A stretch of 64,000 nt of DNA. It comes from Melaminivora jejuensis (GTDB taxonomy: Bacteria; Pseudomonadota; Gammaproteobacteria; Burkholderiales; Burkholderiaceae_C). The position numbers and the translations under genes are program-made. Positions 1 through 55,384 of the stretch are shown here, piece after piece. The stretch covers positions 2,170,001-2,234,000 of the forward strand of contig NZ_JACWIJ010000002.1 of assembly GCF_017811175.1 (NCBI RefSeq). Reading direction: 5' to 3'. Numbering within the stretch: the first letter of the stretch is position 1; every line of letters starts with the position of its first letter. The notes below the pieces were generated by a model. It saw only the letters and a list, made by a program, of their open reading frames with translations. It had not been told where the DNA came from and ran no database searches.

Positions 1-864
1 GGCGCTATAGACGCCTTCGGCCACATGGCCCAGCGACTGCACGGCCTGCTCCAGGCTGTGGCCCTGCGCCAGCAGCAGGCCAACCTTGCGGTTGCGCGAC
101 AGGTCGCCCGTTGCCGTGAGCACCAGATCGCCCAGGCCGGACAGGCCCATGAAGGTTTCGGCGCGGGCGCCCAGCGCCAGGCCCAGGCGGGTCATCTCGG
201 CCAGGCCGCGCGTGATCAGGGCGGCGCGCGCGTTCAGGCCCAGCTGCAACCCATCGCACAGGCCGGTGGCAATGGCCAGCACGTTCTTCACGGCCCCGCC
301 CACTTCCACGCCGACGATGTCGTCGTTGGCATAGACGCGCAGCTGCGGGCTGTGCAGCGCCTGCACCAGCAGGTTGCGCACTTGGGCGTCGCGGCTGGCA
401 GCCACCAGCGCCGTGGGCTGGCCGCGCGCCACCTCCAGGGCAAAGCTGGGGCCGCTCAGGGCGCCGCCGGGTACCTGCGGGGCGATGCGGGCATGGATTT
501 CATGCGCCAGCAGGCCAAAGGGTTCGTGTTGCTGCGCCGCCTCGAAGCCCTTGCACAGCCAGACCAGGGGCGTGCGGCACGCGCGCAGTTGCAGCAGCAG
601 GCCGCGCAAGGCGGCCATGGGCGTGCCCAGAATGAGCAGATCGGCACCCGCCAGCAAGGGGGAGAACTCACCCGTGGCCAGCCGCAGCGCCGGCGGCAGC
701 GCCACGCCGGGCAGATAGCGGGTGTTCTCGTGGCGCGAGCGCATGTCGGCGGCCTGGGCACCATCGCGCGCCCACAGCGTCACCTGGTGCCCGGCGGGGT
801 GCGTGGCAGCGCTGATGGCCACTGCCGTGCCCCAGGCACCCGCTCCGAATACTACTATTTTCAT
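1..864 (-). CDS. gpsA: Glycerol-3-phosphate dehydrogenase (NAD(P)+), 3' end cut by window edge
   Basis: GpsA reduces dihydroxyacetone phosphate to sn-glycerol-3-phosphate in the cytosol, the first committed step of phospholipid synthesis. The visible 288 residues begin [14 protein letters not shown], a Rossmann dinucleotide-binding loop (GAGAWG). They continue through the family blocks [12 protein letters not shown] and [12 protein letters not shown]; the Lys in the latter is the conserved catalytic lysine. The family is usually about 330-340 residues, so about 50 C-terminal residues lie outside the window. It is the last gene of a left-pointing rhodanese-grxC-secB-gpsA series, the same order as yibN-grxC-secB-gpsA in E. 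coli. The ATG sits inside the tail of an R1 repeat (AGCTATGAAAA), so the repeat supplies the initiation region; no Shine-Dalgarno is obvious. Confidence 0.95.
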
Positions 865-905
865 AGCTATCAGCGCTTGTCCAGCAAGGCTTAGAGCCGA
901 AAAAG
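858..905 (-). repeat. R1 dispersed repeat, copy 1
   Basis: Read on the minus strand: GGCTCTAAGCCTTGC, then the core GGACAAGCGCTGATAGCTAT followed by GAAAA. The final ATGAAA is the start of gpsA, so this copy overlaps the coding region. Found by comparison with eleven other copies in the window. Confidence 0.85.
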
Positions 906-1012
906 ACTGAAATTCCAGCGTGTATTCAGCCTCTTTTTAGCCGATTGCAGCCCTGCCTTGCCGGAGGGCGCAGCCGGCTGCGTCGGTTGTTTACTGCCGG
1001 TTCATTGCCGGG

Positions 1013-10979: not shown

Positions 10980-11680
10980 TATCCAGCGTCTGGCGCAGCC
11001 TGCAGCAGGTGGGCGTGGACGGCCCCTGCCTTCAGGTGGCGATGCAGGGCCAGCCCGAGTGCCGCCAGTGCCGCCGGCTCCCAGGCCTGCCCGGCCTCCA
11101 GGTAGATGAAGCCGCCCGGCGCCAGCGCCCGGGCTGCGCTGCGCAGGGCCGGCGCGAAACTGTCCTGCTGGGCATAGGGCGGATCGATGAAGACCAGCTC
11201 CAGGCTGGCCGCCGCCGCACCTTGCAGGGCCTGCAGGCCATCGCCGCGCCGGATCGACACCTGCTGCTGGCTGGCCTGCAGCCGCTGCACATGGCGGCGC
11301 AACTGCGCCGCCAGGGCGGCGTCGCTCTCCACCAGCAGCACGCTGGCGGCGCCGCGCGAGGCGGCCTCCAGCCCCAGCGCGCCAGTGCCGGCGAAGGCGT
11401 CCAGGCAGCGCCAGCCGCCCAGATCTTGGCCCAGCCAGTTGAACAGCGTCTCGCGCACGCGATCGGGCGTGGGGCGCAGGCCGGGCTTGTCGGCCACCGG
11501 CAGGCGGGTGCGCTTCCATTGCCCACCGATGATGCGCACCTCGCCGCTGACCGGGGCCGGCGCGCCTGGCGCTCCGCCCGTCTTGCCGGTCTTGGCGGGA
11601 TGGGCGATCCTGGCGGCCCCGGCAGACTTGCCGCTCTTGCCTGGCTGGCCATCGGCCCTGCCGCTGGCTGCCCTGCTCAT
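10979..11680 (-). CDS. rsmD: 16S rRNA (guanine966-N2)-methyltransferase RsmD
   Basis: Methylates G966 of 16S rRNA using SAM. Core motifs: VRIIGGQWKRTRLPV, RPTPDRVRETLFNWL, SAM loop DAFAGTGALGLEAASRGA and catalytic FIDPPY. An unusual N-terminal extension of about 45 Lys/Gly/Ala/Pro-rich residues precedes the conserved start of the fold, so the true start may be further in; the ATG at 11680 overlaps the preceding M16 gene by 4 bp (ATGA), favouring translational coupling. The stop codon lies at the edge of R1 copy 2. Confidence 0.94.
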   Translation of the reverse strand: MSRAASGRADGQPGKSGKSAGAARIAHPAKTGKTGGAPGAPAPVSGEVRIIGGQWKRTRLPVADKPGLRPTPDRVRETLFNWLGQDLGGWRCLDAFAGTGALGLEAASRGAASVLLVESDAALAAQLRRHVQRLQASQQQVSIRRGDGLQALQGAAAASLELVFIDPPYAQQDSFAPALRSAARALAPGGFIYLEAGQAWEPAALAALGLALHRHLKAGAVHAHLLQAAPDAG

Positions 11681-13047
11681 GGCTTGGCCGGCTGCGCGCC
11701 GACGATGACGGTGACCATGCGCCCGGGCTGCAGCTTTCTCTGCATGGCGGCGCGGATGTCGGCCACGGTGAGGGCCTGCACCCGCTCCGTCCAGTGCTCC
11801 AGGTAGTCCAGCGGCAAATCGTTCCAGGCGATGTTGACCACATTGGCCAGCAGCTTGCGGTTGCTGTCGATGCGCAGGGCAAAGCCGCCGATCAGGTTGT
11901 CCTTGGCGGCGCGCAGCTCGGCCTCGGTCGGGCCTTCGGCGACGAAGCGCGCCAGCACCTCGCGCGTGAGCTGCACCGCCTGCTGCGCCTGATCCGGGCG
12001 CGTCTGCAGGCCGATCACGAAGGCGCCGGCGTTCAGGCCGGGCGAGAACTGGCTATAGACGCCATAGGTCAGGCCGCGCGTCTCGCGCACCTCGTGCGTC
12101 AGGCGCGAGGTGAAGCCGCCGCCGCCCAGGATGTGGTTGCCCACCAGCAGCGCCAGAAAATCCGGGTCGCTGCGCACAAAGCCCGGCTGGCCGATCAGCA
12201 CATGCGCCTGCGCCGAGGCAAGCGCAATGTCTTGCTGCACGGCGCGCGCCAGCGGCTGCACGGCTGGCACGGGCGGCAGCGGCGCGCAGTCGGCAGCCTC
12301 GGCAGCCGGCAGGCGTGCCAGCAAGGTCTGCACCAGCGCCTGCGCCTGTGCGCGCGTCACCGCGCCGACGATGGACACGCGCGCGCGGCAGGCCTGCACG
12401 TAGCGCTGATGAAAGGCCTGCATGTCGGCCACGCCGATGGCGGCCAGGGTGTCCGCCGTGGCGAACTGGCCATAGGGGTGGCTGCCGAACACGTCGCGGG
12501 CAAAGGCTTTGCCGGCGACGGTGCCGGGGCGCGTGTCGGCCTCGCGGATGCTGGCCTGCCAGCGCGCGCGCTCGCGCTGCCAGACGTTGGCGGCAAAGCT
12601 GGGCTGGGCCAACTGGCGCGCGGCCAACTGCGCGGCGCGCTCCAGCAGATCGGCTTCGGTCAGCGAGCGCAGGCCGAAGACCAGGCCGTCGCGTTCGGCG
12701 CCGGCGTCGAAGCTGGCGCCCAGGTCGGCCCAGGCCTCGCCCAGGTCGTTCTCGTCCAGCGCCGGCGCATTGCCCGCAGCCTGCACGCCCTTGCTGCTCA
12801 TCAGCGCCACGGCGCTGGCCAGGCCGGCCTGTGCCGGCGGATCGCGGCGCGTGCCGGCGTCGAAGTCGATCTGCACATCCACCATGGGAATGGCCGGGCT
12901 TTGCACCAGCCAGACACGCGCGCCGCTGGCCTCGCTCCAGTGCTCGATGGGCAGCAGCGCCCAGGCTGATTGAGCATAAAAAACGGCTCCAGCCCATACC
13001 AGGCAAGCGCGGATAGCTATCTTTTTGAGAGTATCTTGCATCATCAT
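11677..13047 (-). CDS. M16 zinc-peptidase-like protein, non-catalytic subunit type
   Basis: A 456-residue exported M16 (pitrilysin/processing-peptidase) homologue. The metal motif HxxEH expected in the first domain is missing: the equivalent segment reads GLASAVALMSSKG. It is therefore probably the structural partner of the intact peptidase encoded just upstream (13064-14533), like the alpha/beta halves of mitochondrial processing peptidase. Other M16 features (GQPGFVRSDPDFLALLVGN, LGGGGFTSRLTHEVRETRGL) are present. The signal peptide (KIAIRACLVWAGAVF) is encoded by R1 copy 3. Sixteen bases separate it from the upstream gene. Confidence 0.9.
   Translation of the reverse strand: MMMQDTLKKIAIRACLVWAGAVFYAQSAWALLPIEHWSEASGARVWLVQSPAIPMVDVQIDFDAGTRRDPPAQAGLASAVALMSSKGVQAAGNAPALDENDLGEAWADLGASFDAGAERDGLVFGLRSLTEADLLERAAQLAARQLAQPSFAANVWQRERARWQASIREADTRPGTVAGKAFARDVFGSHPYGQFATADTLAAIGVADMQAFHQRYVQACRARVSIVGAVTRAQAQALVQTLLARLPAAEAADCAPLPPVPAVQPLARAVQQDIALASAQAHVLIGQPGFVRSDPDFLALLVGNHILGGGGFTSRLTHEVRETRGLTYGVYSQFSPGLNAGAFVIGLQTRPDQAQQAVQLTREVLARFVAEGPTEAELRAAKDNLIGGFALRIDSNRKLLANVVNIAWNDLPLDYLEHWTERVQALTVADIRAAMQRKLQPGRMVTVIVGAQPAKP
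12975..13028 (+). repeat. R1 dispersed repeat, copy 3, inside a signal peptide
   Basis: AAAACGGCTCCAGCCCATACC, then AGGCAAGCGCGGATAGCTAT, then CTTTTTG. It lies wholly inside the 5' coding region of the M16-like gene on the opposite strand, where it encodes residues about 8-24 of the signal peptide. Confidence 0.85.
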
Positions 13048-13063
13048 GACCTTGTGCCCCGGC

Positions 13064-14533
13064 TCAATGGACGCGCCCGCTGGCCGGCGCCTGGCCCTGC
13101 GCCCCAGGCTGGGGCTGGGTGGGGTTGTGCGCTGGACGCGGCTGCGGCACCAGGGTGGCCACGGTCAGCTGATCGTCGCCGAACCAGCGCGCCGCCACCG
13201 ACTGCACCTCGGCAGGCGTCACGCCGCGCAGCAGTTGCAGCAGGCGCTCGTCGGCATCCAGTGGCAGGCCCTGTACCCAGTTGCTGCCCAGGTCGCTGGC
13301 CTGGGCCTGCAGCGAGTCGCGCGCGTAGATGGTGGCTGCGGCCCACTGCGTGGTCACGCGCTCCAGCTCGGCAGCGCCGATGCCTTCGCGCGCCACGCGG
13401 GCGATCTCGGCACGCAGCGCGCGTTCGACATCCTGGGCGCTCTTGCCCGCCGCCGGCACGCCGGACAGCAGGAACAGCGCCGGCCCGCGCCCGACCACCG
13501 AGGCATCGCTGCCGGCGTTGTCGGCCACGCGGTCGGCGCCTTGCGTCAGCGCCCGCTGCAGCCGCGCGCCGTCGTAGCCGCTGAGCACGGCGGACAGCGC
13601 CAGCAGCGCCAGCGCATCGCGGTCGCTTGGCGTGAGATCCTGCACGCGCTCGATGCGCGGCACGCGAAAGGCCAGCGCCACATAGGCCTGGTCGGCGGGC
13701 GCCTTGAACTCGATGCGGCGCATACCCTTTTGCTCGGGCTCCTCGCGCGGCTTCCTGGCCGGCACAGGCCGTGCGGGAATGCTGCCGTAGGTCTGCTGCG
13801 CCAGCGCCAGCACCTGCTGCGGCTCGACGTCGCCCGCCACCACGACCGCCGCATTGGCCGGCACATACCAGCGCGCGTGGAACTGGCGCGCGTCATCGGG
13901 CGTCATGGCGTCCAGGTCGCTCATCCAGCCCACCACCGGGCGGCGATAGGGCGCGGCGATGAAGGTGCTGGCGTACAGCTGCTCGATCAGCGCCGCGCGT
14001 GGCTGGTCTTCGGTGCGCATCCGGCGCTCTTCCTTGACCACCTCCAGCTCGCGCCGGAACTCCTCGTCGGGCCATTGGTTGTGCTCGAAGCGGTCGGCTT
14101 CGAGCTGCATGACATCGGCCAGCCGGCTGGCCGGGATCTGCTGGTAGTAGCCGGTGTAGTCGCGGCTGGTGAAGGCATTTTCCTGTCCGCCCAGGGCGGC
14201 GACGCGGCGCGAGAACTCGCCCGGCGCCAGGGTCTTGGTGCCCTTGAACATCATGTGCTCCAGCACATGGGCCACGCCCGAGGTGCCGTCCACCTCGTCC
14301 ATGGAGCCCACGCGCAGCCAGACCATGTGCAGCGCCGTGGGCGCACGCCGGTCGGGCTGCACGATCAGCTGCATACCGTTGGCCAGCGTGAACTGCTGGG
14401 CGCCGCTGGCCGTGGCGGCCTGGGCTTGCTGGAGGGCCGGGGCCGGCACTGCGGCGGCGGACGGTGAGGAAGCCTGCTGGGCCAGCGCGGACACGCCCGC
14501 CAGCAGGGCCATGAGGGTAAGAGCGCGTTTCAT
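13064..14533 (-). CDS. M16 family zinc metallopeptidase, catalytic subunit type
   Basis: A 489-residue exported protease with signal peptide MKRALTLMALLAGVSALAQQ. The inverted zinc motif is intact: HVLEH (His89, Glu92, His93), with the downstream conserved GQENAFTSRDYTGYYQQIP and the second zinc Glu region LEADRFEHNQW. C-terminal M16 domain motifs (YDGARLQRALTQGADRV) follow. It pairs with the HxxEH-less gene downstream. Divergent from ftsY across only 29 bp. Substrate unknown; M16 pairs of this kind degrade peptides in the periplasm. Confidence 0.93.
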   Translation of the reverse strand: MKRALTLMALLAGVSALAQQASSPSAAAVPAPALQQAQAATASGAQQFTLANGMQLIVQPDRRAPTALHMVWLRVGSMDEVDGTSGVAHVLEHMMFKGTKTLAPGEFSRRVAALGGQENAFTSRDYTGYYQQIPASRLADVMQLEADRFEHNQWPDEEFRRELEVVKEERRMRTEDQPRAALIEQLYASTFIAAPYRRPVVGWMSDLDAMTPDDARQFHARWYVPANAAVVVAGDVEPQQVLALAQQTYGSIPARPVPARKPREEPEQKGMRRIEFKAPADQAYVALAFRVPRIERVQDLTPSDRDALALLALSAVLSGYDGARLQRALTQGADRVADNAGSDASVVGRGPALFLLSGVPAAGKSAQDVERALRAEIARVAREGIGAAELERVTTQWAAATIYARDSLQAQASDLGSNWVQGLPLDADERLLQLLRGVTPAEVQSVAARWFGDDQLTVATLVPQPRPAHNPTQPQPGAQGQAPASGRVH

Positions 14534-14562
14534 AGAATGGCTGCGATTCTAAGAACCCGCCA

Positions 14563-15771
14563 ATGTTCAGCTTCTTCAAGAAAAAAACCCCCGCCCCCGA
14601 AGCGCCGCCAGAACAGCCGGCGTCCCCTGCTGCGCCCGTGGCCGCGCCGATCCCTGCTGCCGGCGCAGCGCCTTCCGCCAGCACCCCTGCCGCTCCCAGC
14701 CCGGCCCCGCCCGCAGCGGCCAGCCCGGCCACAGGCGCCATGGCCTGGCTGCGCAAGTCCTTCGGCGGCGCCGGTGCCGAATCCGATGCCGCCGCGCCAG
14801 CCGCCGCCCAGGCTCCTGCGGCATTCCCGGCTGCGCCCGAGCCGACCGCCAAGCCGTTGCCCGCTGCCAGCGCCCGCCAGCATTGGGTCGAACGCCTGAA
14901 ATCCGGGCTGAAGAAGACCGGCACCAGCATCGCCACCGTCTTCACCGGCACGCAGATCAACGAGGCGCTGTACGAGGAACTGGAGGACGCGCTGCTGATG
15001 GCCGATGCCGGCGTGCGCGCCACCCAGCACCTGCTGGACGACCTGCGCCGGCGCGTCAAGGAGACCAAGGCCACCGAGCCCGCCGCCGTCAAGGCACTGC
15101 TGGCCGACGCGCTGGCCGATCTGCTGCGCCCGCTGGAAAAGCCCCTGGTCATCGGCGAGCACACGCCCACCGTGATCATGGTGGCCGGCGTCAACGGCGC
15201 GGGCAAGACGACTTCCATCGGCAAGCTCACGCGCCATCTGGCCGAGCACGGCCAGAGCGTGCTGCTGGCTGCCGCCGACACCTTCCGCGCCGCCGCGCGC
15301 GAGCAGCTGGGCGTCTGGGCCACGCGCAGTGCGGTGGAGATCATCAGCCAGGAAGGGGGCGACCCGGCTGCCGTGAGCTTCGACGCCGTGGCTGCCGGGC
15401 GCGCACGCGGGCGCGACGTGGTGCTGGTGGACACCGCCGGGCGCCTGCCCACGCAGCCGCATCTGATGCAGGAGCTGGCCAAGATCCGCCGCGTCATCAC
15501 CAAGGCCGACGCCAGCGCGCCGCACGAGGTGCTGCTGGTCATCGACGGCAACACCGGCCAGAACGCGCTGGCGCAGGTGCGCGCCTTCGACGATGTGCTG
15601 CAGCTCACCGGCCTGATCGTGACCAAGCTCGACGGCACGGCCAAGGGCGGCGTGCTGGCGGCCATCGCCCAGGAGCGGCCCGTGCCGGTGTATTTCATCG
15701 GCGTGGGCGAGCGCCTGGAAGACCTGGAGACCTTCAACGCACGCGAGTTCGCCCAGGCGCTGCTGGCCTGA
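14563..15771 (+). CDS. ftsY: Signal recognition particle receptor FtsY
   Basis: SRP receptor GTPase that docks Ffh-ribosome complexes to the SecYEG translocon. The 402 residues begin MFSFFKKKTP, with an Ala/Pro-rich, low-complexity A domain to about residue 105, then N and G domains: GVNGAGKTTSIGKL (G1, about 207), DTFRAAAREQLGVW, DTAGRLPTQPHLMQEL (G3) and TKLDGTAKGG (G4/G5). The A domain is less acidic than in E. coli. Divergent from the M16 pair, a neighbourhood common in Burkholderiales. Confidence 0.97.
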   Translation: MFSFFKKKTPAPEAPPEQPASPAAPVAAPIPAAGAAPSASTPAAPSPAPPAAASPATGAMAWLRKSFGGAGAESDAAAPAAAQAPAAFPAAPEPTAKPLPAASARQHWVERLKSGLKKTGTSIATVFTGTQINEALYEELEDALLMADAGVRATQHLLDDLRRRVKETKATEPAAVKALLADALADLLRPLEKPLVIGEHTPTVIMVAGVNGAGKTTSIGKLTRHLAEHGQSVLLAAADTFRAAAREQLGVWATRSAVEIISQEGGDPAAVSFDAVAAGRARGRDVVLVDTAGRLPTQPHLMQELAKIRRVITKADASAPHEVLLVIDGNTGQNALAQVRAFDDVLQLTGLIVTKLDGTAKGGVLAAIAQERPVPVYFIGVGERLEDLETFNAREFAQALLA

Positions 15772-15893
15772 GGGCGCGCCCGGGGATGGAGGCGCGTAGC
15801 GCGTGGTGCGTGGTGCATTTGGCGTTGACCGCACGACCGCCCCCGGCGCAGGGCGGCGCGCGGGCCATCGGGACAGCGCCCTTTCAGCTACGC

Positions 15894-15950
15894 TTTCAAT
15901 AGCTGCCAACGCTTGCCAATCAAGGGTTTGATGGCTTTTTCATCATTATT
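15894..15950 (-). repeat. R1 dispersed repeat, copy 4
   Basis: Minus-strand reading: AAAAAGCCATCAAACCCTTG, then ATTGGCAAGCGTTGGCAGCTAT, then TGAAAG. Lies in the 434-bp gap after ftsY, 50 bp from M1 copy B. Nothing else coding is seen in that gap. Confidence 0.8.
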
Positions 15951-16000
15951 CCCGGAAGTTGCCGCTCAAGTATTGGCGGCAGCTGGCCGATAGGCACTTA

Positions 16001-16149
16001 GAGCGTGTTTACGATCTCCGCGCGCAGGGGCGCGGGTGCGGATCGGGATGGGCTGCCAGGCGCAAACCGCAGCGATAGCCCGTGCTATCGCGAGGATTTG
16101 CAACGCCGCAGACCGCCCGCGCACCCGCGCGGGGATCGTAAACACGCTC
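16001..16149 (+). mobile_element. M1 MITE-like element, copy B
   Basis: 149-bp copy with the same GAGCGTGTTTACGATC terminal inverted repeats, flanked by TTA direct repeats at 15998-16000 and 16150-16152. It lacks a 12-bp internal block (AGGCCGCGCCCG-like) that copies A and C carry near the right end. Confidence 0.8.
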
Positions 16150-16205
16150 TTACGCCTCGTGCGCTTTTTCGTGCGCGCCCGCGTGCAACCCCGGGAGATC
16201 ACACC

Positions 16206-17321
16206 ATGAAGATTGCCGCATCGACCCTGGAGTGGCAGGCCGAGCACAGCGCCAGCCGCACGGAAAGCCACAGTGCCAGTCTGCGTTCCTGGAGCGGCCA
16301 GCGCCCTGCCGACGCTGCGGCCCTGGGCGCTGCCCTGCCCGCCGGCGGGCAGGCCTCCAACGCCGCCGGCCAGGCCGGGGCCGCGCTGGTGCGCTCATCC
16401 CTGCAGATCAGCCAGGAAGCCCGTCGCCTGCTGCGAGAAGAAGGCCTGCAGGCCGGCAGCGCCGTCGATCGGGCGCAGCAGCCGCTGTGGCGCTCGGAGC
16501 TCAGCCCGCTGCAGAGCATGATCAGCCAGCTCATCGAGCACATGACCGGCGTGGGCGCCAACTTGATCCGCGTCGAGGCTGGCGCCGCCCAGGCGCAGCC
16601 CTTGCCCACGGACAGCGAGGGCCGCGCGCTGGCCAGTGCTGCCCAGGCCGCCAACTGGGGCCTGGAGTACGACGAGCACCACGTCCTGGAAGAAAGCGAG
16701 AGCACCCGCTGGGCCGCCCAGGGCACGATACACACCACCGACGGGCGTGAGGTCAGTTTCAGCATCGAGCTGCAGATGCAGCGCCACTTTCGCCAGGAAA
16801 GCAACACCTCGCTGCGCCTGGGCAACGCCCGTCCGATCGACCCGCTGGTCATCAACTTCGACGGCACGGCAGCCGAGCTGCAGGACGTGCGCTTTGCCTT
16901 CGACCTGGACAGCGACGGACACGCCGAGCAGGTGCCGCTGCTGGCCGGCAACCGGGGTTTTCTGGCGTTGGATCGCAACGGCAACCAGCGCATCGACAAC
17001 GGCAGCGAGCTGTTCGGCCCGGGCACCGGCAACGGCTTTGCCGAACTGGCGGCCTACGACGACGACGGCAATGGCTGGATCGACGAAAACGACCAGGTCT
17101 TCGAGCAGCTGCGCGTGTGGACGCCGTCCGCCGATGGCCCGGGCACGCTGCGCAGCCTGCGCGAGGTCGGCGTCGGCGCCATCTCGCTGGCTGCCGCCGG
17201 CACGGAGTTCGCGCTGCGCACAGCGGACAACCGCAGCCTGGGCCAGGTGCGCGCCACCAGCGCCTATCTGTACGAGGATGGCCGGGTCGGCCACGTGCAG
17301 CAGCTCGACCTGAGCGTCTGA
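16206..17321 (+). CDS. Hypothetical protein with EF-hand-like calcium loops
   Basis: A 371-residue protein with no recognised enzymatic domain and no signal peptide. The N-terminal 110 residues are Ala/Ser/Gln-rich and helical. Residues about 215-320 carry three Asp-rich loops typical of calcium sites: FDLDSDGHAEQ, LDRNGNQRIDNGSELFGPG and YDDDGNGWIDENDQVF, followed by LRVWTPSADGPG. The same D-x-N/D-x-D-G arrangement occurs in large Ca-dependent exported proteins of proteobacteria. It begins 57 bp after M1 copy B; transcription may be influenced by that element. Secretion route is unknown. Confidence 0.8.
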   Translation: MKIAASTLEWQAEHSASRTESHSASLRSWSGQRPADAAALGAALPAGGQASNAAGQAGAALVRSSLQISQEARRLLREEGLQAGSAVDRAQQPLWRSELSPLQSMISQLIEHMTGVGANLIRVEAGAAQAQPLPTDSEGRALASAAQAANWGLEYDEHHVLEESESTRWAAQGTIHTTDGREVSFSIELQMQRHFRQESNTSLRLGNARPIDPLVINFDGTAAELQDVRFAFDLDSDGHAEQVPLLAGNRGFLALDRNGNQRIDNGSELFGPGTGNGFAELAAYDDDGNGWIDENDQVFEQLRVWTPSADGPGTLRSLREVGVGAISLAAAGTEFALRTADNRSLGQVRATSAYLYEDGRVGHVQQLDLSV

Positions 17322-17358
17322 AGGGCGCCCCGAAGGGGGATTTCTGAGCGGCCCGGGG

Positions 17359-17730
17359 TCACGGCTGCGCCACCTGCTCCTGCGCCCACGCGCCGTAGGC
17401 GGCACTGGCGTGCAGCGGCTGGGCCGTCAGTTGCGGCACCTGGTAGGGGTGCTCGTGCTGCAGCAGGCCGCACAGGGCCGGCAAGGCGGCAGCGGTGGTC
17501 TTGCAGTCCAGCCGCCACTCGGCCTCGTGCTGCAGCGCCCCATCCCAACGGTAGTGCGATTCGATCTGCTGGATCTGCACGCAGGCCGCCAGCGCCTGCT
17601 GCAGCACCAGTCCCGCCAGGCGGCGGGCATCGTCACGGTTGGCCACGGTAGTGGTCAAAAGCCACAGCGCAACTGGCAGATGGCCGACAGCGGCAGTGGG
17701 CGGTGCGGAGACAGGATTGGCAGCAGACAT
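17359..17730 (-). CDS. cutA: Divalent-cation tolerance protein CutA
   Basis: Small trimeric CutA1-fold protein, originally linked to copper tolerance; molecular role unresolved. Family landmarks: LLTTTVANRDDARRLAGLVL, ALAACVQIQQIESHYRWDG, WRLDCKTT and LQHEHPYQVPQL. Start is uncertain: the frame is open to 17796, and the ATG at 17730 (123 residues) is chosen because it gives the family-like length and keeps the CIRCE element at 17810 outside the gene. Divergent from rpoH; convergent with the calcium-loop gene. Confidence 0.9.
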   Translation of the reverse strand: MSAANPVSAPPTAAVGHLPVALWLLTTTVANRDDARRLAGLVLQQALAACVQIQQIESHYRWDGALQHEAEWRLDCKTTAAALPALCGLLQHEHPYQVPQLTAQPLHASAAYGAWAQEQVAQP

Positions 17731-17809
17731 CGCAGAAGATGGGTTGAGAAAAACCAGATTGACACGCGAAGCCGGCATTTTCACGCTTTGCGACACGGGA
17801 ACTTCGGCT

Positions 17810-17836
17810 TTAGCACTCGATCCAAGAGAGTGCTAA
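17810..17836. promoter_or_regulatory. CIRCE operator (HrcA site) upstream of rpoH
   Basis: Perfect TTAGCACTC-N9-GAGTGCTAA inverted repeat, identical to the CIRCE consensus, 66 bp before the rpoH start. HrcA is the known repressor of CIRCE; its gene is not in this window. Confidence 0.95.
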
Positions 17837-17902
17837 CATCCTCCGATTGAGCCATTCCTGCTGGCCTTCGGACGACACATACAACGATCAAGGACGCCGC
17901 TC

Positions 17903-18838
17903 ATGACCACTTCCGCACTCTCCGGCTCTGCCGCGCTCACGCCCGCTAGCCCGTGGGCCGTCGTGCCGCCGCTGGGCAATCTGGACGCCTACATCACTGC
18001 CGTCAACCGCCTGCCCCTGCTGACGCTGGAGGAGGAGCAGCGCTATGCCCGCGAGCTGCGCGATGACGGCAACGTCGATGCCGCTGGCCGCCTGGTGCTG
18101 TCGCACCTGCGCCTGGTGGTGTCCATCTCGCGCCAGTACCTGGGCTATGGCCTGCCGCACGGCGACCTGATCCAGGAGGGCAACGTCGGCCTGATGAAAG
18201 CCGTCAAGCGCTTCGACCCGGATCAGGGCGTGCGCCTGGTCAGCTATGCCATGCACTGGATCAAGGCCGAGATCCACGAATACATCCTGAAGAACTGGCG
18301 CATGGTCAAGGTGGCCACCACCAAGGCGCAGCGCAAGCTGTTCTTCAATCTGCGCTCCATGAAGCAGGGTTTCAAGGCCGATGCGCTGGATGCCGACACG
18401 CACCGCGACACCCTGTCCGAGCGCGAGATCGACCAGGTGGCCGAGCAGCTCAACGTCAAGCGCGAGGACGTGATCGAGATGGAAACTCGCCTGTCGGGCG
18501 GCGACATCCTGCTCGATCCAGCACCCAGTGATGACGGCGAGCAGGCCTTCGGGCCGATCGCCTACCTGTCCGATACCGGCCACGAGCCCACTGCCATGCT
18601 CGAATCGCGCCAGCGCGACATGCTGGCCACCGACGGCATCGCCACCGCGCTGGACAGCCTGGATGCGCGCAGCCGGCGCATCGTCGAGCAGCGCTGGCTG
18701 CAGGTCAACGACGACGGCTCGGGCGGCATGACGCTGCACCAGCTGGCCGCCGAGTACGGCGTGAGCGCCGAGCGCATCCGCCAGATCGAAGTCGCAGCGA
18801 TGAAGAAGATGAGAAAGGCGCTGGTCGAATACGCCTGA
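17903..18838 (+). CDS. rpoH: RNA polymerase sigma-32 (heat-shock) factor
   Basis: A 311-residue sigma-70 family factor. Region 2 reads LVLSHLRLVVSISRQYLGYG, HGDLIQEGNVGLMKAVKRF and YAMHWIKAEIHEYILKNWRM; the RpoH box QRKLFFNLR directly follows and identifies sigma-32 rather than RpoS or RpoD. Region 4 HTH is LHQLAAEYGVSAERIRQIE. Directs transcription of chaperone and protease genes after heat stress. The CIRCE element 66 bp upstream indicates additional repression by HrcA. A strong terminator follows at 18880. Confidence 0.97.
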   Translation: MTTSALSGSAALTPASPWAVVPPLGNLDAYITAVNRLPLLTLEEEQRYARELRDDGNVDAAGRLVLSHLRLVVSISRQYLGYGLPHGDLIQEGNVGLMKAVKRFDPDQGVRLVSYAMHWIKAEIHEYILKNWRMVKVATTKAQRKLFFNLRSMKQGFKADALDADTHRDTLSEREIDQVAEQLNVKREDVIEMETRLSGGDILLDPAPSDDGEQAFGPIAYLSDTGHEPTAMLESRQRDMLATDGIATALDSLDARSRRIVEQRWLQVNDDGSGGMTLHQLAAEYGVSAERIRQIEVAAMKKMRKALVEYA

Positions 18839-18879
18839 CGCCCGGCCTGCCTGCTGCCCGGGGCAGGCGGATAATCGAG

Positions 18880-18910
18880 GCGCGCATCCTTCATGGATGC
18901 GCGCTTTTTT
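18880..18910 (+). terminator. Rho-independent terminator after rpoH
   Basis: GCGCGCATCC-TTCAT-GGATGCGCGC perfect 10-bp stem followed by TTTTTT. Confidence 0.93.
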
Positions 18911-19004
18911 GCGTTATGCAGATGGCGTTGTGCATCTGGCGCTCGGGCGCTGCGCTGCGCTGTGCCGTCTGCCGCTTTTTCCCTTTCCTACAGGAGATCC
19001 GCCC

Positions 19005-20021
19005 ATGCCCCGCCCCATTGCCGCGCGCCGCGCCTTGCTTACCCTCGCCGTTGCCGCCGGGCTGGCGGGCGCCTGCGGCGTCGCCGTCGCACAGAACGCT
19101 CCGGCCACACCCGGCTGGCCGGCCAAGACGGTACGCATCATCGTCGGCTTCCCGCCCGGCTCTTCGCCCGATCTGACGGCGCGCACCTTTGCCGAGCCGC
19201 TGGCGCAGGCGCTGGGCCAGTCGGTCATCGTGGAAAACAAGGTCGGCGCCGGCGGCAACATCGGCGCCGACGCGGTGGCCAAGGCCACGGACGGCCACAC
19301 CATCGGCCTGTTCATCAATGGCAACCTGACCATTGCCAAGCTGATCAATCCGCAGGTGCCCTATGACCCGGCGCGCGACCTGGCGCCGCTGTCGCTGATC
19401 GGCGTGTCGCCCCTGGTGCTCACGGCTGCCGTGGGCCAGAAGGACGTGCCGGCAGACGGTGACGCGCGGGCCTTCCTGGCCGCTGCCCGCGGCGCCGGCG
19501 ACCGCTGGAGCTATGGCACGCCCGGCGTGGGCACGGTGGGCCACCTGGGCACGGAGCTGCTCAAGGCACGCACCGGCATCGATCCGCTGCACGTGCCCTA
19601 CCCCGGCTACCCGCAGGTGGCCACGGCCATGGGCGGCGGGCAACTGCAGATGGCGCTGCTGCCGCCGGCGCTGGCGCTGGCGCAGGAGCGCGCCGGCAAG
19701 CTGCGCCGCATCGGCGTGACCTCTGCCGGGCGCAGCACGCTGGCCCCCGAGGTACCCAGCCTGGCCGAGGCCGGCGTCCAGGATTTCGAGCTGGAAATCT
19801 GGAACGCTTTCGCTGCACCGGCCAACATGCCGGCCGCCGTGCGGGCGCGCCTGTCGGCGACCATCGCCGACATTGCCCGCACCCCTGCGGTGCGCGAGAA
19901 GATGTTCCAGCAGGGCTGGCAGGCCGTTGGCTCGTCCGCAGAAGGCCTGGCCAACCGGATGCGCGCCGACACTGCCGCCATGGGCCAGGTGATCCGCGAG
20001 CAAAAGATCACGGCGCAGTAA
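19005..20021 (+). CDS. Tripartite tricarboxylate transporter substrate-binding protein (Bug family)
   Basis: A 338-residue periplasmic solute receptor of the TctC/Bug family, greatly expanded in Burkholderiales. Signal peptide about residues 1-28 (RRALLTLAVAAGLAGACG, AVAQ). Family motifs: WPAKTVRIIVGFPPGSSPDL, GQSVIVENKVGAGGNIGADA, PYDPARDLAPLSLIG and EVPSLAEAGV. AGGAG precedes the ATG. No TctA or TctB membrane subunits are nearby, so its partner and ligand (probably an organic acid) are unknown. Confidence 0.93.
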   Translation: MPRPIAARRALLTLAVAAGLAGACGVAVAQNAPATPGWPAKTVRIIVGFPPGSSPDLTARTFAEPLAQALGQSVIVENKVGAGGNIGADAVAKATDGHTIGLFINGNLTIAKLINPQVPYDPARDLAPLSLIGVSPLVLTAAVGQKDVPADGDARAFLAAARGAGDRWSYGTPGVGTVGHLGTELLKARTGIDPLHVPYPGYPQVATAMGGGQLQMALLPPALALAQERAGKLRRIGVTSAGRSTLAPEVPSLAEAGVQDFELEIWNAFAAPANMPAAVRARLSATIADIARTPAVREKMFQQGWQAVGSSAEGLANRMRADTAAMGQVIREQKITAQ

Positions 20022-20072
20022 AAACCGCCACCCCCTTGGCCGGGAGCGGGGCTACCCGCGCTGCGCGCGCCC

Positions 20073-20708
20073 TCAGCGCGCCTGGTCGAGCAGGATGCGG
20101 ATGTCGGATGCCAGCGCCTGCGCGCCGCTGCCGTAGCGGTGGTACAGGCGCAGCCGCCCGGCCGTGTCATAGACGTAGGTGCCGGCGGAGTGATCCATGG
20201 TGTAGCTGGTCGGCGTGCTGCCCTCGACGCGCTTGTAATAGATCTTGAAGTCCTTGGCCACGGCGGCCAGTTGTTCGGGCGAGCCGCGCAGAGCCACGAA
20301 GCTGGGGTCGAAATTGGCCATGTAGGCCTTGAGCACCTCGGGCGTGTCGCGCTCGGGATCGACCGTGACGAAGACGCCCTGCACGCGCTCGCTGTCGGCG
20401 CCCAGCGAGCGCTTGACCTCGGCCAGTTCGCTCATGGCCGTGGGACACACGTCCGGGCACTGGGTATAGCCGAAGAAGGCCACGACGACCTTGCCGGCAA
20501 AGTCCGAGAGCGTGCGCTGCCGGCCATCCTGGTCGGGCAGGGGCAGGTCGCGGCCATAGTCGGCACCGGTCACATCCACACCCTGGAATTTAGCCGCAGC
20601 AGGCCCACATCCAGCAAGAAAAACGGCTCCAAGGCTTGCCAGACAAGCGCTGGCAGCTATCTTTTCAAGAGCGCGACGACGGTTCGGGTTCAGGTTCGGG
20701 TTCAGCAT
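20073..20708 (-). CDS. SCO1/SenC copper chaperone lipoprotein
   Basis: A 211-residue thioredoxin-fold protein that delivers copper to the CuA site of cytochrome oxidase. Copper ligands CPDVC (FFGYTQCPDVCPTAMSEL) and the downstream conserved His (MDHSAGTYVYD) are present, with VFVTVDPERDTPEVLKAYM. A lipobox LAGC ends the signal peptide, so it is membrane-anchored on the periplasmic side. Residues about 16-30 of the signal peptide (KIAASACLASLGAVF) are encoded by R1 copy 5. Its ATG overlaps the ctaB stop by one base. Convergent with the Bug gene. Confidence 0.94.
   Translation of the reverse strand: MLNPNLNPNRRRALEKIAASACLASLGAVFLAGCGPAAAKFQGVDVTGADYGRDLPLPDQDGRQRTLSDFAGKVVVAFFGYTQCPDVCPTAMSELAEVKRSLGADSERVQGVFVTVDPERDTPEVLKAYMANFDPSFVALRGSPEQLAAVAKDFKIYYKRVEGSTPTSYTMDHSAGTYVYDTAGRLRLYHRYGSGAQALASDIRILLDQAR
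20617..20668 (+). repeat. R1 dispersed repeat, copy 5, inside a lipoprotein signal peptide
   Basis: AAAACGGCTCCAAGGCTTGC, then CAGACAAGCGCTGGCAGCTAT, then CTTTTC. It lies inside the SCO1 gene on the opposite strand and encodes the hydrophobic part of the signal peptide. Confidence 0.88.
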
Positions 20709-24638: not shown

Positions 24639-24665
24639 CCGGCGTGACCGGCACCTGAGTGTCCG

Positions 24666-24728
24666 TTTCAAGCCATTTCTGGCCTGAAGCGGCACCCAGC
24701 AAGCGCTGACAGCTATTTTTATGATAGC
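24666..24728 (+). repeat. R1 dispersed repeat, copy 6
   Basis: TTTCAAGCCATTTCTGGCC, then the conserved half CAGCAAGCGCTGACAGCTAT, then TTTTATGATAGC. Lies between the DUF2909 and coxC stop codons (convergent genes). The left half is more diverged than in other copies. Confidence 0.75.
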
Positions 24729-33431: not shown

Positions 33432-33671
33432 GCAAAGGGTCTCAAAACGTGTTCACGATCCTGGCCGCCTTTTCAAGGCATTGCAGGGAGCAGCCCTGTG
33501 CGCCCCTGCGAACGGCTGGGCGCCGGGCGCACAACGCAGACTCCCCACATCGCGCACAGGCTCTCCAAGTCGTGCCAGAAAAAGCCACGCCCGCCACAAG
33601 GCGTAGCGGCCTGCATTATCGAGCGGCGAGCGGCGGCGCTGCACGCCCGGGCTGGGCAGTACTGTCGTTAC
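33432..33671. other. Non-coding stretch upstream of LysE and the antiporter
   Basis: No gene is seen between 33432 and the antiporter start at 33813; the right part holds R1 copy 7. At about 33441-33456 ACGTGTTCACGATC matches the M1 terminal repeat at 13 of 16 positions, possibly a decayed element end. Confidence 0.45.
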
Positions 33672-33727
33672 ACATAAAATGCACCGCAAACCCTTACCAG
33701 GCAAGCGCTGGCAGCTATTATCCAAGG
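33672..33727 (+). repeat. R1 dispersed repeat, copy 7
   Basis: ACATAAAATGCACCGCAAAC, then CCTTACCAGGCAAGCGCTGG, then CAGCTATTATCCAAGG. Best match to the R1 consensus. Lies 86 bp before the antiporter gene. Confidence 0.9.
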
Positions 33728-33812
33728 AGCATGTCGAGCAGGCAATACCGGCATTGCTGGCGCCAGTGCCACAATTTCCGCGCTCCCCTGCTCCCGATCA
33801 CTCCCCGCACGC

Positions 33813-35711
33813 ATGGCCCAAGCCCCCGTCTGGCTCTCCTACGGCTTCACCTACCTGGCCGCTGCGGTGATTGCCGTGCCCATTGCCCGCGCGCTGGGCC
33901 TGGGCGCCATCATCGGCTACCTGGCTGCCGGCATCGCCATCGGCCCCTGGGGCCTGGGCCTGGTGCGCAACGTGCAGGACATCTTGCACTTTGCCGAGTT
34001 TGGCGTGGTGCTGATGCTGTTCCTGGTCGGCCTGGAGCTGCAGCCGCAGCGCCTGTGGAGCCTGCGCCGCCCCATCCTGGGTCTGGGCACGGCACAGATG
34101 GCTGGCTGCGCGCTGCTGCTGTGGCTGGCCGCCTGGCTGCTCGGCCTGCCCTGGCGCGTGGCGCTGGTGGGTGCGCTGGGCCTGGCGCTGTCGTCCACGG
34201 CGATCGCGCTGCAGGTGCTGGGCGAACGCAACCTGCTGCGCTCGGACAGCGGGCAAAAGGCCTTTTCCATCCTGCTGTTCCAGGACGTGGCGGCAATTCC
34301 CATCCTGGCGCTGCTGCCGCTGCTGGGTGCAGTGGCCAGCGCCGCGCAGCCGCACAGCGCGCGCGAGCTAGGCTTGGAGGCGCTGCGCATCGCCGCCGTG
34401 GTCGGCGCCATCGTGCTGGGCGGGCGCTGGCTGCTGCGCCCGGTGCTGCGCTGGATCGCACGCAGCAAGCAGCCGGAAATCTTCACCGCCGCATCGCTGT
34501 TTCTGGTGGTGGGCATCGCCATGCTGATGCTGTCGGTGGGCCTGTCGATGGCGCTGGGCGCCTTTCTGGCCGGCGTGCTGCTGGCCGACAGCGAGTACCG
34601 GCGCGAGCTGGAGACCGACATCGAGCCCTTCAAGGGCCTGCTGCTGGGCCTGTTCTTCATCGCCGTGGGCATGAGCATCGACTTCGGCGTGCTGGCGCGA
34701 GCGCCCTGGACGATGCTGGCGCTGCTGGGGGGCTTTCTGGCCATCAAGGCGCTGGTCATCTGGCTGCTGGCGCGCGCCAGCGCCATGCCCTACCGGGAGC
34801 GCCCGGTGTTCACGCTGCTGCTGGCGCAAGGCGGCGAGTTCGCCTTCGTAGTCTTCCAGACTGGCGCCAGCTTTGGCGCCATCCAGGCCGAGGCGGCGTC
34901 GCTGCTGATAGGCGCGGTGGCACTGTCCATGCTGCTCGGCCCGCTGGTGCTGGTGCTGCTTGATCGCTGGCTGCTGCCGCGCCACGCCCGCTTGGCCCAA
35001 GAGCCCGGCAGCGACGCCGCGCAAGGCGGGCGCAGCCTGCACGAGCCGCAGGACGCGCCGGTCATCATTGCCGGCTTTGGCCGCTATGGGCAAATCGTCG
35101 CGCGCATGGTATTGGCGCAGGGCGTGCCGGCGACAGTGCTCGACCACAGCGTGGAGATGCTGGAGGTGGCACACACCTTCGGCTACCGCGTGTTCTATGG
35201 CGATGCCACACGCGTGCCGCTGCTGCGTCTGGCTGGCGCCGGCAGCGCGCGCGTACTGGTGGTGGCAGTGGATGCACCCGAGCAGTCGCTCAGGATCGTG
35301 CAGGCCGCGCGCCAGCATTTCCCGCATCTCACGATCGTCGCCCGGGCGCGCGACGTGACGCACTGGCACGCCCTGCGCGACCTGGGCGTGCAGCACATTG
35401 AGCGCGAGCTGTTTCCCGCCAGCGTCGCCAGCGCACGCACGGTGCTGGAGCTGCTGGGCCAGGAGGCGGCCGAGGCGCAGGCCTTTGCCGAGCGCTTCAC
35501 GGCGCACAACACCGCACTGGCCGAGCGCATGTACCAGCACCACCATGACCGCGAGGCCATGATCGCCGTGGCCCGCCAGGGCCGCCAGCAACTGGTGGAG
35601 CAACTGGCCAAGGAACGCCAGGAACGCATGGCTGCCGCGCAGCCACCCGCCAGCCTGCCTGAAGAATTGAATGAAAACCGGCAAAAGGCCTTTGCAGACA
35701 AGCGCTGGTAG
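33813..35711 (+). CDS. CPA2 family cation:proton antiporter with TrkA-N domain (KefB/KefC-like)
   Basis: A 632-residue K+/H+ antiporter. The membrane domain (about residues 5-385) has ALGLGAIIGYLAAGIAIGPW, FLVGLELQPQRLW, ALSSTAIALQVLGER and LLFQDVAAIPILALLPLLG, with the essential Asp in FQDVAAIP. A cytosolic RCK/TrkA-N NAD-binding domain follows from about residue 418 (VIIAGFGRYGQIVARMV). A His-rich stretch (MYQHHHDRE) lies near the C-terminus. The last 13 codons and the TAG stop come from R1 copy 8. No KefF/KefG partner is adjacent. Confidence 0.93.
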   Translation: MAQAPVWLSYGFTYLAAAVIAVPIARALGLGAIIGYLAAGIAIGPWGLGLVRNVQDILHFAEFGVVLMLFLVGLELQPQRLWSLRRPILGLGTAQMAGCALLLWLAAWLLGLPWRVALVGALGLALSSTAIALQVLGERNLLRSDSGQKAFSILLFQDVAAIPILALLPLLGAVASAAQPHSARELGLEALRIAAVVGAIVLGGRWLLRPVLRWIARSKQPEIFTAASLFLVVGIAMLMLSVGLSMALGAFLAGVLLADSEYRRELETDIEPFKGLLLGLFFIAVGMSIDFGVLARAPWTMLALLGGFLAIKALVIWLLARASAMPYRERPVFTLLLAQGGEFAFVVFQTGASFGAIQAEAASLLIGAVALSMLLGPLVLVLLDRWLLPRHARLAQEPGSDAAQGGRSLHEPQDAPVIIAGFGRYGQIVARMVLAQGVPATVLDHSVEMLEVAHTFGYRVFYGDATRVPLLRLAGAGSARVLVVAVDAPEQSLRIVQAARQHFPHLTIVARARDVTHWHALRDLGVQHIERELFPASVASARTVLELLGQEAAEAQAFAERFTAHNTALAERMYQHHHDREAMIAVARQGRQQLVEQLAKERQERMAAAQPPASLPEELNENRQKAFADKRW

Positions 35712-35722
35712 CTATTGAATGA
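35671..35722 (+). repeat. R1 dispersed repeat, copy 8, encoding a C-terminus
   Basis: ATGAAAACCGGCAAAAGGCC, then TTTGCAGACAAGCGCTGG, then TAGCTATTGAATG. In frame it encodes ENRQKAFADKRW and the TAG stop of the antiporter; the stop arises where other copies have CAG. Confidence 0.85.
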
Positions 35723-35876
35723 GGAGCAAGCTGCGGCATTGTGCGTTGTCCGCCGTGCATTGGATACCCCCTCGCCAGGCCCTCAACGCCCCACCGCAGC
35801 AGCGGGCGCCAGGCCCTCTCCATGAGGGAAGCGCCCTGGCAGGGATGGCCTGGCAAGCCCGTGCTACGCTGCCCCC

Positions 35877-39491: not shown

Positions 39492-40094
39492 ATGAGCCTT
39501 GTCCAACCCATCACCCTGCAGGGGCGCGGCGTGCGCCTGGAACCGCTGGCCCTGGAGCACGAGGCCGGCCTGGCCGCCGCTGCCGCCGACGGCGAGCTGT
39601 GGCGCATCCGCGTGACCTCGGTGCCCGAACCGCAGGACACGCGCGCCTACATCGAGACCGCCCTGGCCATGCGCGAGGCCGGCAACCGCTTCGCCTTTGC
39701 CGTGCTCGACGAGGCCAGCGGCCGCGTGCTGGGCAGCACCAGCTACCACGACATCCTGCCCGCCGTGCGGCGCGTGGAGATCGGCTACACCTGGTATGCC
39801 AACAGCGTGCAGCGCACCCACGTCAACACCGCCGCCAAGCTCCTGATGATGGGCCACGCCTTCGACACTCTGGCCTGCCACGTGGTCGGCTGGCGCACGG
39901 ACAACTTCAACTTCGCGTCGCAGCGCGCCATCGAGCGCCTGGGCGCGAAAAAAGACGGCGTGATCCGGGGCCATGCGCTGCGCCGCGACGGCACCATCCG
40001 CGACACCGTCATGTACAGCATGACTGCCGGCGAATGGCCCGAGGCGCGTGCGCAACTGCTCTATCTTTTGCAGCGCTTTTCGCTTGCTGGGTAA
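39492..40094 (+). CDS. GNAT family N-acetyltransferase (RimJ/RimL type)
   Basis: A 200-residue GNAT acetyltransferase. Motifs: QGRGVRLEPLALEHEAGL at the start, RVLGSTSYHDILPAVRRVEI and GYTWYANSVQRTHVNTAAK in the acetyl-CoA region, and TDNFNFASQRAIERLGAKKDG in the middle, as in RimJ/RimL. It lies between MoxR and its VWA partner in a same-strand run (38-bp and 18-bp gaps), which suggests cotranscription; its substrate could be a component of the MoxR/VWA client (inference). Confidence 0.93.
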   Translation: MSLVQPITLQGRGVRLEPLALEHEAGLAAAAADGELWRIRVTSVPEPQDTRAYIETALAMREAGNRFAFAVLDEASGRVLGSTSYHDILPAVRRVEIGYTWYANSVQRTHVNTAAKLLMMGHAFDTLACHVVGWRTDNFNFASQRAIERLGAKKDGVIRGHALRRDGTIRDTVMYSMTAGEWPEARAQLLYLLQRFSLAG

Positions 40095-40112
40095 GGCCTG
40101 GAGGCCGTTTAC

Positions 40113-43302: not shown

Positions 43303-43401
43303 GCGGGCCTTTTCGCATTGCTCCAGGGCGTTGCGGCGCAGCAGCCTTGACAGCCTCCAGCGCATGTTTCCTGTTTCAGAAACCTGCTGCCCCGGCACTC
43401 C

Positions 43402-43460
43402 TTTTTTCATAGCTGCCAGCGCTTGCCTGTATTGGCTTTCAGGCATATTTCATTCATATT
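43402..43460 (-). repeat. R1 dispersed repeat, copy 9
   Basis: Minus-strand reading: ATATGCCTGAAAGCCAATAC, then AGGCAAGCGCTGGCAGCTAT, then GAAAAAAG. It occupies part of the 316-bp tamA-tamB gap; nothing else coding is seen there. Confidence 0.85.
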
Positions 43461-47901: not shown

Positions 47902-47904
47902 GTT

Positions 47905-47963
47905 GGTATGAAAAACACCCCAATCCCTTGTCCAGCAAGCGCTGATAGCTATCATTTTGTTGA
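47905..47963 (+). repeat. R1 dispersed repeat, copy 10
   Basis: GGTATGAAAAACACCCCAAT, then CCCTTGTCCAGCAAGCGCTG, then ATAGCTATCATTTTGTTGATAG. It starts 3 bp after the tamB stop and lies before the tRNA-Arg gene. Confidence 0.87.
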
Positions 47964-48043
47964 TAGCCCCTGCTTCGTCGAATCCCCCTTGACGGGCGGG
48001 ATAGGCCACCAGCGCGCTTACAATCGTCGGCTTTGCCCCTTTC

Positions 48044-50534: not shown

Positions 50535-50610
50535 TAAGAGTGCGCTCAGACTCTTGAGCCAAGGAGGCGGCGCAGAGCGCGGAAGCCAGGGCCGGGCACC
50601 TGGGCAAAAA

Positions 50611-50669
50611 ATCAGTCAAAACAGGCTGAAACCCTTACCTGTCAAGCGTTGACAGCTATTGAAAAATGA
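50611..50669 (+). repeat. R1 dispersed repeat, copy 11
   Basis: GTCAAAACAGGCTGAAACCC, then TTACCTGTCAAGCGTTGACAGC, then TATTGAAAAATGAG. Lies 76 bp after M1 copy C, in the 425-bp gap before arsC, where no gene is seen. Confidence 0.82.
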
Positions 50670-50721
50670 GTTCGGGCAGCTGCGTCAGGCGCTGCCCCTG
50701 GGGCAGAACAAGCCTGCTTGC

Positions 50722-55316: not shown

Positions 55317-55320
55317 GATT

Positions 55321-55384
55321 TATAGCCAAAATGGCTTGAAACCCGCACCAGGCAAGCGCGAGCAGCTATCAAAATTGATTTTTC
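55321..55384 (+). repeat. R1 dispersed repeat, copy 12
   Basis: TATAGCCAAAATGGCTTGAA, then ACCCGCACCAGGCAAGCGCG, then AGCAGCTATCAAAATTGA. Fills the pyrB-pyrC' gap, starting 4 bp before the pyrC' ATG (opposite strand). Confidence 0.87.

Follow-up and report, generated by a model that had tools for sequence, protein, structure and literature searches.

Two signal peptides over one motif

The 64,000-nucleotide stretch of the Melaminivora jejuensis genome analysed here (the window; the genome is G000 in comparisons) carries the genes of two unrelated proteins, an M16-family peptidase and a SCO1/SenC lipoprotein, whose signal-peptide codons coincide with copies of the same DNA motif, R1. The motif occurs in genome-specific forms, referred to as dialects, and probably serves as a recognition sequence for DNA uptake. 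The genes and their R1 copies are located as follows.

11677..13047, minus strand: coding sequence of the M16-family peptidase (Pfam PF05193, PF00675), with the signal peptide MMMQDTLKKIAIRACLVWAGAVFYAQSAWA partly encoded by R1
12969..13032, minus strand: R1 copy over the signal-peptide codons of M16 (68 bits; the G000 dialect scores best); same place in G001, G003, G004 and G014
20073..20708, minus strand: coding sequence of the SCO1/SenC lipoprotein (Pfam PF02630), with a signal peptide that includes ...RRRALEKIAASACLASLGAVFLAGC
20609..20672, minus strand: R1 copy over the signal-peptide codons of SCO1 (68 bits; the G000 dialect scores best)

The first-pass annotation of this DNA had proposed that one repeat encodes part of both signal peptides, and this is borne out. 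Besides the profile score of 68 bits for each copy, the two 64-mers are identical at 48 of 64 bases and at 12 of 21 encoded residues, and the peptides KIAIRACLVWAGAVF and KIAASACLASLGAVF do match at 10 of 15 positions (counted by eye). The sample of this genome contained a third R1-overlaid signal peptide, that of an ABC-type auxiliary lipoprotein (L081:15368-16051). All signal peptides were identified by visual inspection. The SCO1 signal peptide with R1 is also present in G001, G003, G004, G008, G014, G019 and others, and the closest M16 genes belong to named relatives including Melaminivora, Oryzisolibacter and Acidovorax. A recent origin of these forms, which the annotation had considered, is not supported, as the orthologue comparison found them in many Comamonadaceae for both genes.

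Signal peptides of GC-rich genomes are generally alike in their residues, and the similarity could in principle reflect chance or this shared composition. Recoding the same peptides with the codon usage of the genome gave, in 5000 trials, at most 28 bits for SCO1 and 36 bits for M16 versus the 68 bits observed. The match therefore lies in the DNA and is not just a by-product of similar peptides. In addition, the reversed sequence of the 864-kb sample described below contained no match above 12 bits, and this explanation is contradicted to the point of being negligible.

The R1 motif and its lineage dialects

The R1 profile was seeded from 111 core matches in 864 kb, or 23% of the 3.75-Mb genome. 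It spans 64 ungapped columns, more than the repeat of the first-pass annotation, with a consensus close to GCTAC.AAATTG-ATAGCTGCCAGCGCTTGCC.GGCAAGGGTTTGAGGC.GATTTGAC.C.AAAT. In this sample, 181 non-overlapping copies score above 18 bits with a profile that includes the window copies, a density of about 210 per Mb. Samples of seven genomes contain 185-310 copies per Mb and their reversed controls none. The core alone, at up to two mismatches, has 449 matches in the whole genome versus 2 for the control. Thirteen copies lie in the window according to a profile trained on 800 kb of G000 outside it. Results on dialects, strands, recoding, argF and glmU, coding copies, signal-peptide scores and score distributions all rest on profiles from whose training the window and its syntenic regions were excluded.

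The A-tracts of the motif occur whole as AAA or TTT far above the expectation for independent columns (for instance AAA 28 times versus 2.9 expected), and this exchange of whole tracts suggests that recognition may depend on shape and not on letters. The distribution of scores is bimodal, and the few intermediates are commoner inside coding sequences (10 of 38 at 8-40 bits). Eight of the 13 window copies were folded; no hairpin is common to them, z falling below -2 in only two, and a search of the window against Rfam at the gathering score returned one tRNA and no match to R1. Among the matches listed in the openly licensed literature, titles and abstract openings describe no Comamonadaceae repeat or uptake sequence.

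Strong over-representation of R1 is confined to part of the Comamonadaceae. The pattern AGCGCNNGCAGCTAT at up to one mismatch, by which a more distant dialect would be missed, exceeds three times its control in 17 of 36 genomes of the family, reaching 823 matches versus 9 (441 versus 8 in G000). Other families, represented by 24 genomes, show no conspicuous excess, the largest by ratio being 18 versus 5 (G048) and 5 versus 1 (G053).

Each genome has its own dialect, for example ...GCGCTTGCC.GGCAAGGGTTTGAGGC in G000, ...GCGCTTTATTCACGCCGACTGAAGGCC in G003 and ...GGCCCTTG....CAAGGGCTGG.GGCC in G001. Of the window copies covered in relatives, 10 of 12 in G003, 11 of 12 in G001, 12 of 13 in G004 (one with loose placement) and 6 of 7 in G014 have an R1 counterpart at the same position with matching orientation. 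Copies of the syntenic regions score best with the dialect of their own genome in 13 of 13 cases for G000, 13 of 15 for G003 and 12 of 13 for G001. Between G000 and G003, the motif middle is hardly more alike at orthologous sites (0.42) than at different loci (0.39), the two within-genome values being 0.55 and 0.66. The 5' flank, in contrast, still reflects the locus (0.60 versus 0.44). The corresponding values for the motif middle in G000 and G001 are 0.46, 0.44 and, within genomes, 0.54 and 0.46.

Several observations limit this picture of concerted change. The own dialect is best in only 9 of 19 copies of G004 and 2 of 11 of G014, two genomes whose dialects are near each other; the concerted signal of the G001 comparison comes mainly from the G000 side; and G000 and G004, which have near dialects, give no such signal over 11 pairs (0.56 at orthologous sites, 0.46 at different loci, 0.54 and 0.53 within genomes). 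Genome-wide dialect shifts are clear for G000 and G003, fair for G001 and not seen for G004 and G014.

The signal peptides follow the dialect where dialects are distinct, in G000, G003 and G001. For the M16 copy the own profile is best in G000 (68 bits, next 56), G003 (79, next 65), G001 (37, next 33) and G004 (69, next 67), while in G014 it yields 58 and the G004 profile 61. For the SCO1 copy it is best in G000 (68, next 64), G003 (54, next 48) and G001 (58, next 43) and not in G004 (37 versus 39) or G014 (49 versus 51). In G003, for instance, the SCO1 signal peptide contains ALITPTAAAF, and the DNA there reads ACGCCGACTG.GGCC, as in the dialect of that genome. The R1 score of the signal peptide also rises with the R1 density of the genome, with rho 0.82 over 30 SCO1 loci and 0.93 for the 10 of 23 M16 loci with a genome count (the best of seven profiles being taken in both cases). 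One assignment (L031 to G002) is a guess, and both values ignore relatedness, which weakens this support.

The motif was held by the first-pass annotation to have been recruited for export as a ready-made signal-peptide core. The second half of that idea is partly right, since the IAA frame is open across the 64 nucleotides in 96 of 183 copies of this genome. Recruitment for export does not agree with the orthologues: R1-free outgroup genes (L050-L052) already have signal peptides, and R1-free signal peptides stand in the same place in Ramlibacter, in a Comamonadaceae metagenome-assembled genome and in another labelled Gammaproteobacteria. Delftia acidovorans, which is nearly free of R1 (32 matches versus 11 in the control), has the like peptide KKMVASTVLAGVGMGF on R1-less DNA, and its M16 signal peptide is equal in length to the R1-bearing one of Comamonas testosteroni. 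Given these outgroups and Delftia, the simplest reading is that the signal peptide came first and that the motif overwrote it; the two unrelated signal peptides would be alike because the same motif overwrote both. The Ala/Leu-rich codons that follow a Lys may tolerate R1 in the same frame (xLxKIAxxAC) in both.

Gain of R1 by base replacement and placement of its copies

Where the gain of R1 could be followed, in the two genes argF and glmU, it came by base replacement. Among 12 aligned argF orthologues, R1 is present in the four examined members of the genus and absent from the other eight, and the length of the gene is unchanged in 11 of the 12, the exception being G011 with three residues fewer. 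The R1 segment is 42% diverged from the R1-free orthologues versus 14% for the 300 nucleotides upstream. Protein identity in the segment is 0.85 among R1-free genes, 0.80 among R1-bearing ones and 0.46 between the two groups, which share 0.87 outside it (6 of the 8 R1-free genomes were used for these figures of identity and divergence). GlmU has R1 in 8 of 12 genomes. The stretch concerned varies even without R1 (identity 0.38 between the R1-free proteins of three genomes), and its length differs by +1 residue in G022, -1 in Delftia, +4 in G019 and -7 in G011, none of these differences being of R1 size. As a separate observation, the last 21-37 codons of argF are repeated 3' of the gene, with two extra matches in G000 (G000:C2:214374-214597), one each in G001 and G004 and three in G008.

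These data bear directly on the proposal that genes repeatedly captured a mobile intergenic repeat, by its insertion, as an export signal. The presence of three signal peptides overlaid by R1 in the 864-kb sample would suit it. Neither argF nor glmU shows an R1-sized length difference over 12 genomes each, most window copies have R1 at the same place in relatives, and the equal M16 lengths of Delftia and Comamonas testosteroni, the R1-less outgroup signal peptides, the lack of a common hairpin in the 8 of 13 window copies folded and the near absence of linkage between columns all speak against it. The proposal is contradicted by these results and regarded as very improbable. In the same way, R1 resembles the repetitive extragenic palindromic (REP) sequences, bacterial interspersed mosaic elements (BIME) and miniature inverted-repeat transposable elements (MITE) in its hundreds of short, mostly intergenic copies, but differs from them in the lack of insertion, of appreciable linkage and of a common hairpin; a REP- or MITE-like mobile or hairpin element was rejected on the grounds that empty sites are not shorter (argF, glmU), variants show little linkage (G000), a few unusually similar pairs apart, and the hairpin is not conserved. 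Rickettsia palindromic elements, which are insertions, are likewise repeated DNA in conserved protein genes in several frames. R1 is unlike them in bringing no length change of its own size, and an in-frame insertion of this kind was discarded as ArgF and GlmU are not lengthened accordingly.

Copying between existing sites is a more serious alternative. By ectopic gene conversion, old dispersed copies would overwrite each other in short tracts and signal peptides would be caught up in the process. Dialects, orthologous sites with a rewritten middle between locus-specific flanks, and bimodal scores with few intermediates are all compatible with it, and so is a result that counts against the uptake reading: in six of seven genomes, no column shuffle yields a pair of copies as similar as the best real pair, and in the seventh there is a tie. 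In G000 the identity of the best pair is 56 versus about 53 for the average top pair of block shuffles, while the mean nearest-neighbour identity of 47.5 is nearly explained by shuffling 16- or 32-nucleotide blocks (47.1 and 47.4). Linkage between columns is near zero beyond about 10 nucleotides (159 best G000 copies), which argues against copying of whole units and also against this alternative. Moreover, copies of 64 nucleotides that are about 50-60% alike are generally poor substrates for homologous recombination, the gain in argF at an R1-less site needs a donor tract placed without homology, and whole A/T-tract swaps do not fit. Gene conversion is considered unlikely.

In samples of seven genomes, 57-75% of R1 midpoints are intergenic versus 10-20% of the DNA, according to a simple gene caller of our own, and the strands are balanced (plus in 251 of 522 copies). 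The core lies within a called gene in 148 of the 522 copies, in all six frames, by a census from the same gene caller in which some placements inside coding sequences are wrong-strand open reading frames. Genes with an internal copy include those of MutS, GlmU, ArgF and, by Pfam like these, the competence protein ComEC, and further genes that we take to encode PurL, aconitase, IleS, CCA and GlnE. Nine of the 522 copies lie on the strand of the gene, in the IAA frame and no further in than codon 40; of the nine, five are signal-peptide-like, a lower bound as copies known from synteny were missed. Signal peptides are few among the coding copies, many of which are in other genes and other frames, and this too speaks against a role for export.

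The remaining window copies are the following.

851..914, plus strand: R1 copy lying opposite, and overlapping, the start of the minus-strand coding sequence 1-864 at its start codon
10915..10978, minus strand: R1 copy between the called genes 10165-10653 and 10979-11680
15887..15950, plus strand: R1 copy, intergenic
24665..24728, minus strand: R1 copy, intergenic
33667..33730, minus strand: R1 copy, intergenic
35664..35727, minus strand: R1 copy over the 3' end and stop codon of the plus-strand coding sequence 33813-35711 (C-terminus ...AFADKRW)
40058..40121, plus strand: weak R1 copy (38 bits) at the 3' end of the plus-strand coding sequence 39492-40094
43397..43460, plus strand: R1 copy, intergenic
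47901..47964, minus strand: R1 copy at the 3' end of the plus-strand coding sequence 43714-47901
50608..50671, minus strand: R1 copy, intergenic
55318..55381, minus strand: R1 copy, intergenic

As R1 covers a start codon at 851-914 and a stop codon at 35664-35727, where ...DKRW comes from the motif, some protein ends are R1-derived. A second repeat, unrelated to R1, is present at 10697-10859, 15997-16131 and 50373-50535 of the window; its copies of about 135-163 nucleotides are 95-98% alike, with inverted ends AGAGCGTGTTTACGATC / GATCGTAAACACGCTCT, and this MITE-like element looks truly mobile, unlike R1.

A role as terminator was tried and set aside, since intergenic copies are alike between ++, --, +- and -+ gene pairs (16, 21, 10 and 14; one at a stretch end). 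In relatives, the matches listed include inverted pairs of R1 cores about 22-24 nucleotides apart (e.g. G007:C1:4607359/4607383 and G062:C44:64892/64916), which recall the inverted pairs of DNA uptake sequences (DUS) in terminators.

Gaps of less than 1 kb between copies are rarer than after intergenic-matched random placement in four of the seven genomes (G000 22 versus 41, G003 3 versus 11, G001 2 versus 9, G019 9 versus 18; P <= 0.01), with 8 versus 13 in G004 (P 0.06) and no significant difference in G014 (11 versus 12) and Comamonas testosteroni (15 versus 19); the random placement allows overlap, which slightly inflates its close pairs. Regarding acquired DNA, the 20-kb stretches of this genome without R1 are L065 (55% GC, with transposases and a replicase) and L059 (61% GC), which makes two of the three stretches below 62% GC, and the other 38 stretches, the 64-kb window included, have 2 to 13 copies each. 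L059 (G000:C2:500001-520000) encodes a SEC-C protein, with a weak NERD match below the cut-off, and a large AAA_27 ATPase, and is possibly a defence island. The exact 17-mer core has 7 matches in viral contigs versus 3 for its reversed control, and blastn of R1 against plasmids and phages, an insensitive search, gave no matches.

The shortage of close pairs, together with the length of the motif, its core and A-tracts and its lack of strand polarity, could also be expected if an intracellular DNA-binding protein, involved in nucleoid or chromosome organisation, bound R1 and selection maintained its sites, with dialects that follow the protein. Nevertheless, selection on hundreds of sites, even in argF where R1 costs about half of 22 residues, would be hard to sustain without drive, and the scarcity of R1 in two low-GC stretches would fit uptake better. 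Such a protein is considered unlikely, slightly more so than gene conversion.

A putative DNA uptake sequence

The reading that we favour, with a probability of roughly 0.6, is that R1 is recognised as DNA in the manner of uptake sequences, working like the uptake signal sequences (USS) of Pasteurellaceae and the DUS of Neisseriaceae. The driving force would be biased DNA uptake. A type IV pilin receptor would bind R1 through the core ATAGCTG..GCGCTT and the A-tracts, fragments with good copies would be taken in more often, and homologous recombination would write the imported fragments into the genome, a form of molecular drive; a change of receptor would then entail a change of dialect. ComEC and a ComP_DUS-type pilin are encoded in this genome, and such a pilin is found in 34 of the 36 genomes searched.

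Acidovorax temperans was reportedly transformed by same-species DNA only, and Verminephrobacter eiseniae took up DNA selectively and required type IV pili, with no sequence named there (PMC4212676). R1 would be the obvious candidate for the missing sequence behind the selective transformation of Acidovorax and Verminephrobacter. Species-specific transformation could also reflect sequence divergence that blocks recombination.

USS of Haemophilus influenzae and other Pasteurellaceae likewise combine a core with AT-tracts, and USS and DUS alike are reported to arise by base changes, in USS by point change and not insertion, to occupy spacers and unconstrained coding sites, to show no orientation bias and to have lineage variants (PMC7811141, PMC1939737, PMC2397512, PMC3630211). 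DUS also form a clade-wide motif with species dialects (PMC3630211), are absent from recently acquired genes and are held to appear partly by recombination, without point-mutation intermediates (PMC2397512). That mode of origin could fit the scarcity of R1 intermediates. Even spacing provides no firm likeness, as the papers disagree on it (PMC7811141, PMC1939737).

Several points weigh against the uptake reading. R1 extends over 64 columns with 40-60 bits and so far exceeds the 9-bp core in a motif of about 31 bp of USS and the DUS of about 10 bp, and it is unrelated in sequence to DUS; its uptake role is putative. Its bimodal scores contrast with the graded near-matches reported for USS and DUS (PMC1939737). 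The low-GC stretch L088 (60%) carries four R1 copies. Moreover, a strong ComP_DUS-type pilin is also found in G015 and G021, which have no R1 by the pattern. G000, G004, G007, G008, G014 and G019 have the ComP_DUS-type pilin (78-94 bits) beside a gene presumed to be PilY1-like, while G001 and G003, the most divergent dialects, have only a weak one (29-33 bits) in another, non-syntenic place (L212, L214); an NCBIfam search with two pilin fragments gave no match. This difference is a possible receptor swap, and given the pilins of G015 and G021, receptor coevolution is only a lead.

It is a little better than an even bet that Comamonadaceae would be the third bacterial family with DNA uptake sequences, of a kind unlike USS and DUS and about twice the length of USS, and that dialect shifts rewrote signal peptides of secreted proteins and parts of housekeeping enzymes. 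Signal peptides of unrelated proteins would thereby become alike, and those of orthologues would drift apart as dialects change. A 2020 paper names just two families in which DNA uptake has a strong sequence preference (PMC7811141), and the 2014 work on Acidovorax and Verminephrobacter did not settle what makes their transformation selective (PMC4212676); R1 is a sequence that can be tested for it at once. In these bacteria a change at the level of DNA reshapes proteins, as in the conserved 22-residue stretch of ArgF, where identity drops from 0.85 to 0.46, and in signal peptides that change with the dialect of the repeat. Comparisons of signal peptides or tests of selection in R1-bearing bacteria could be misled without knowledge of the motif.

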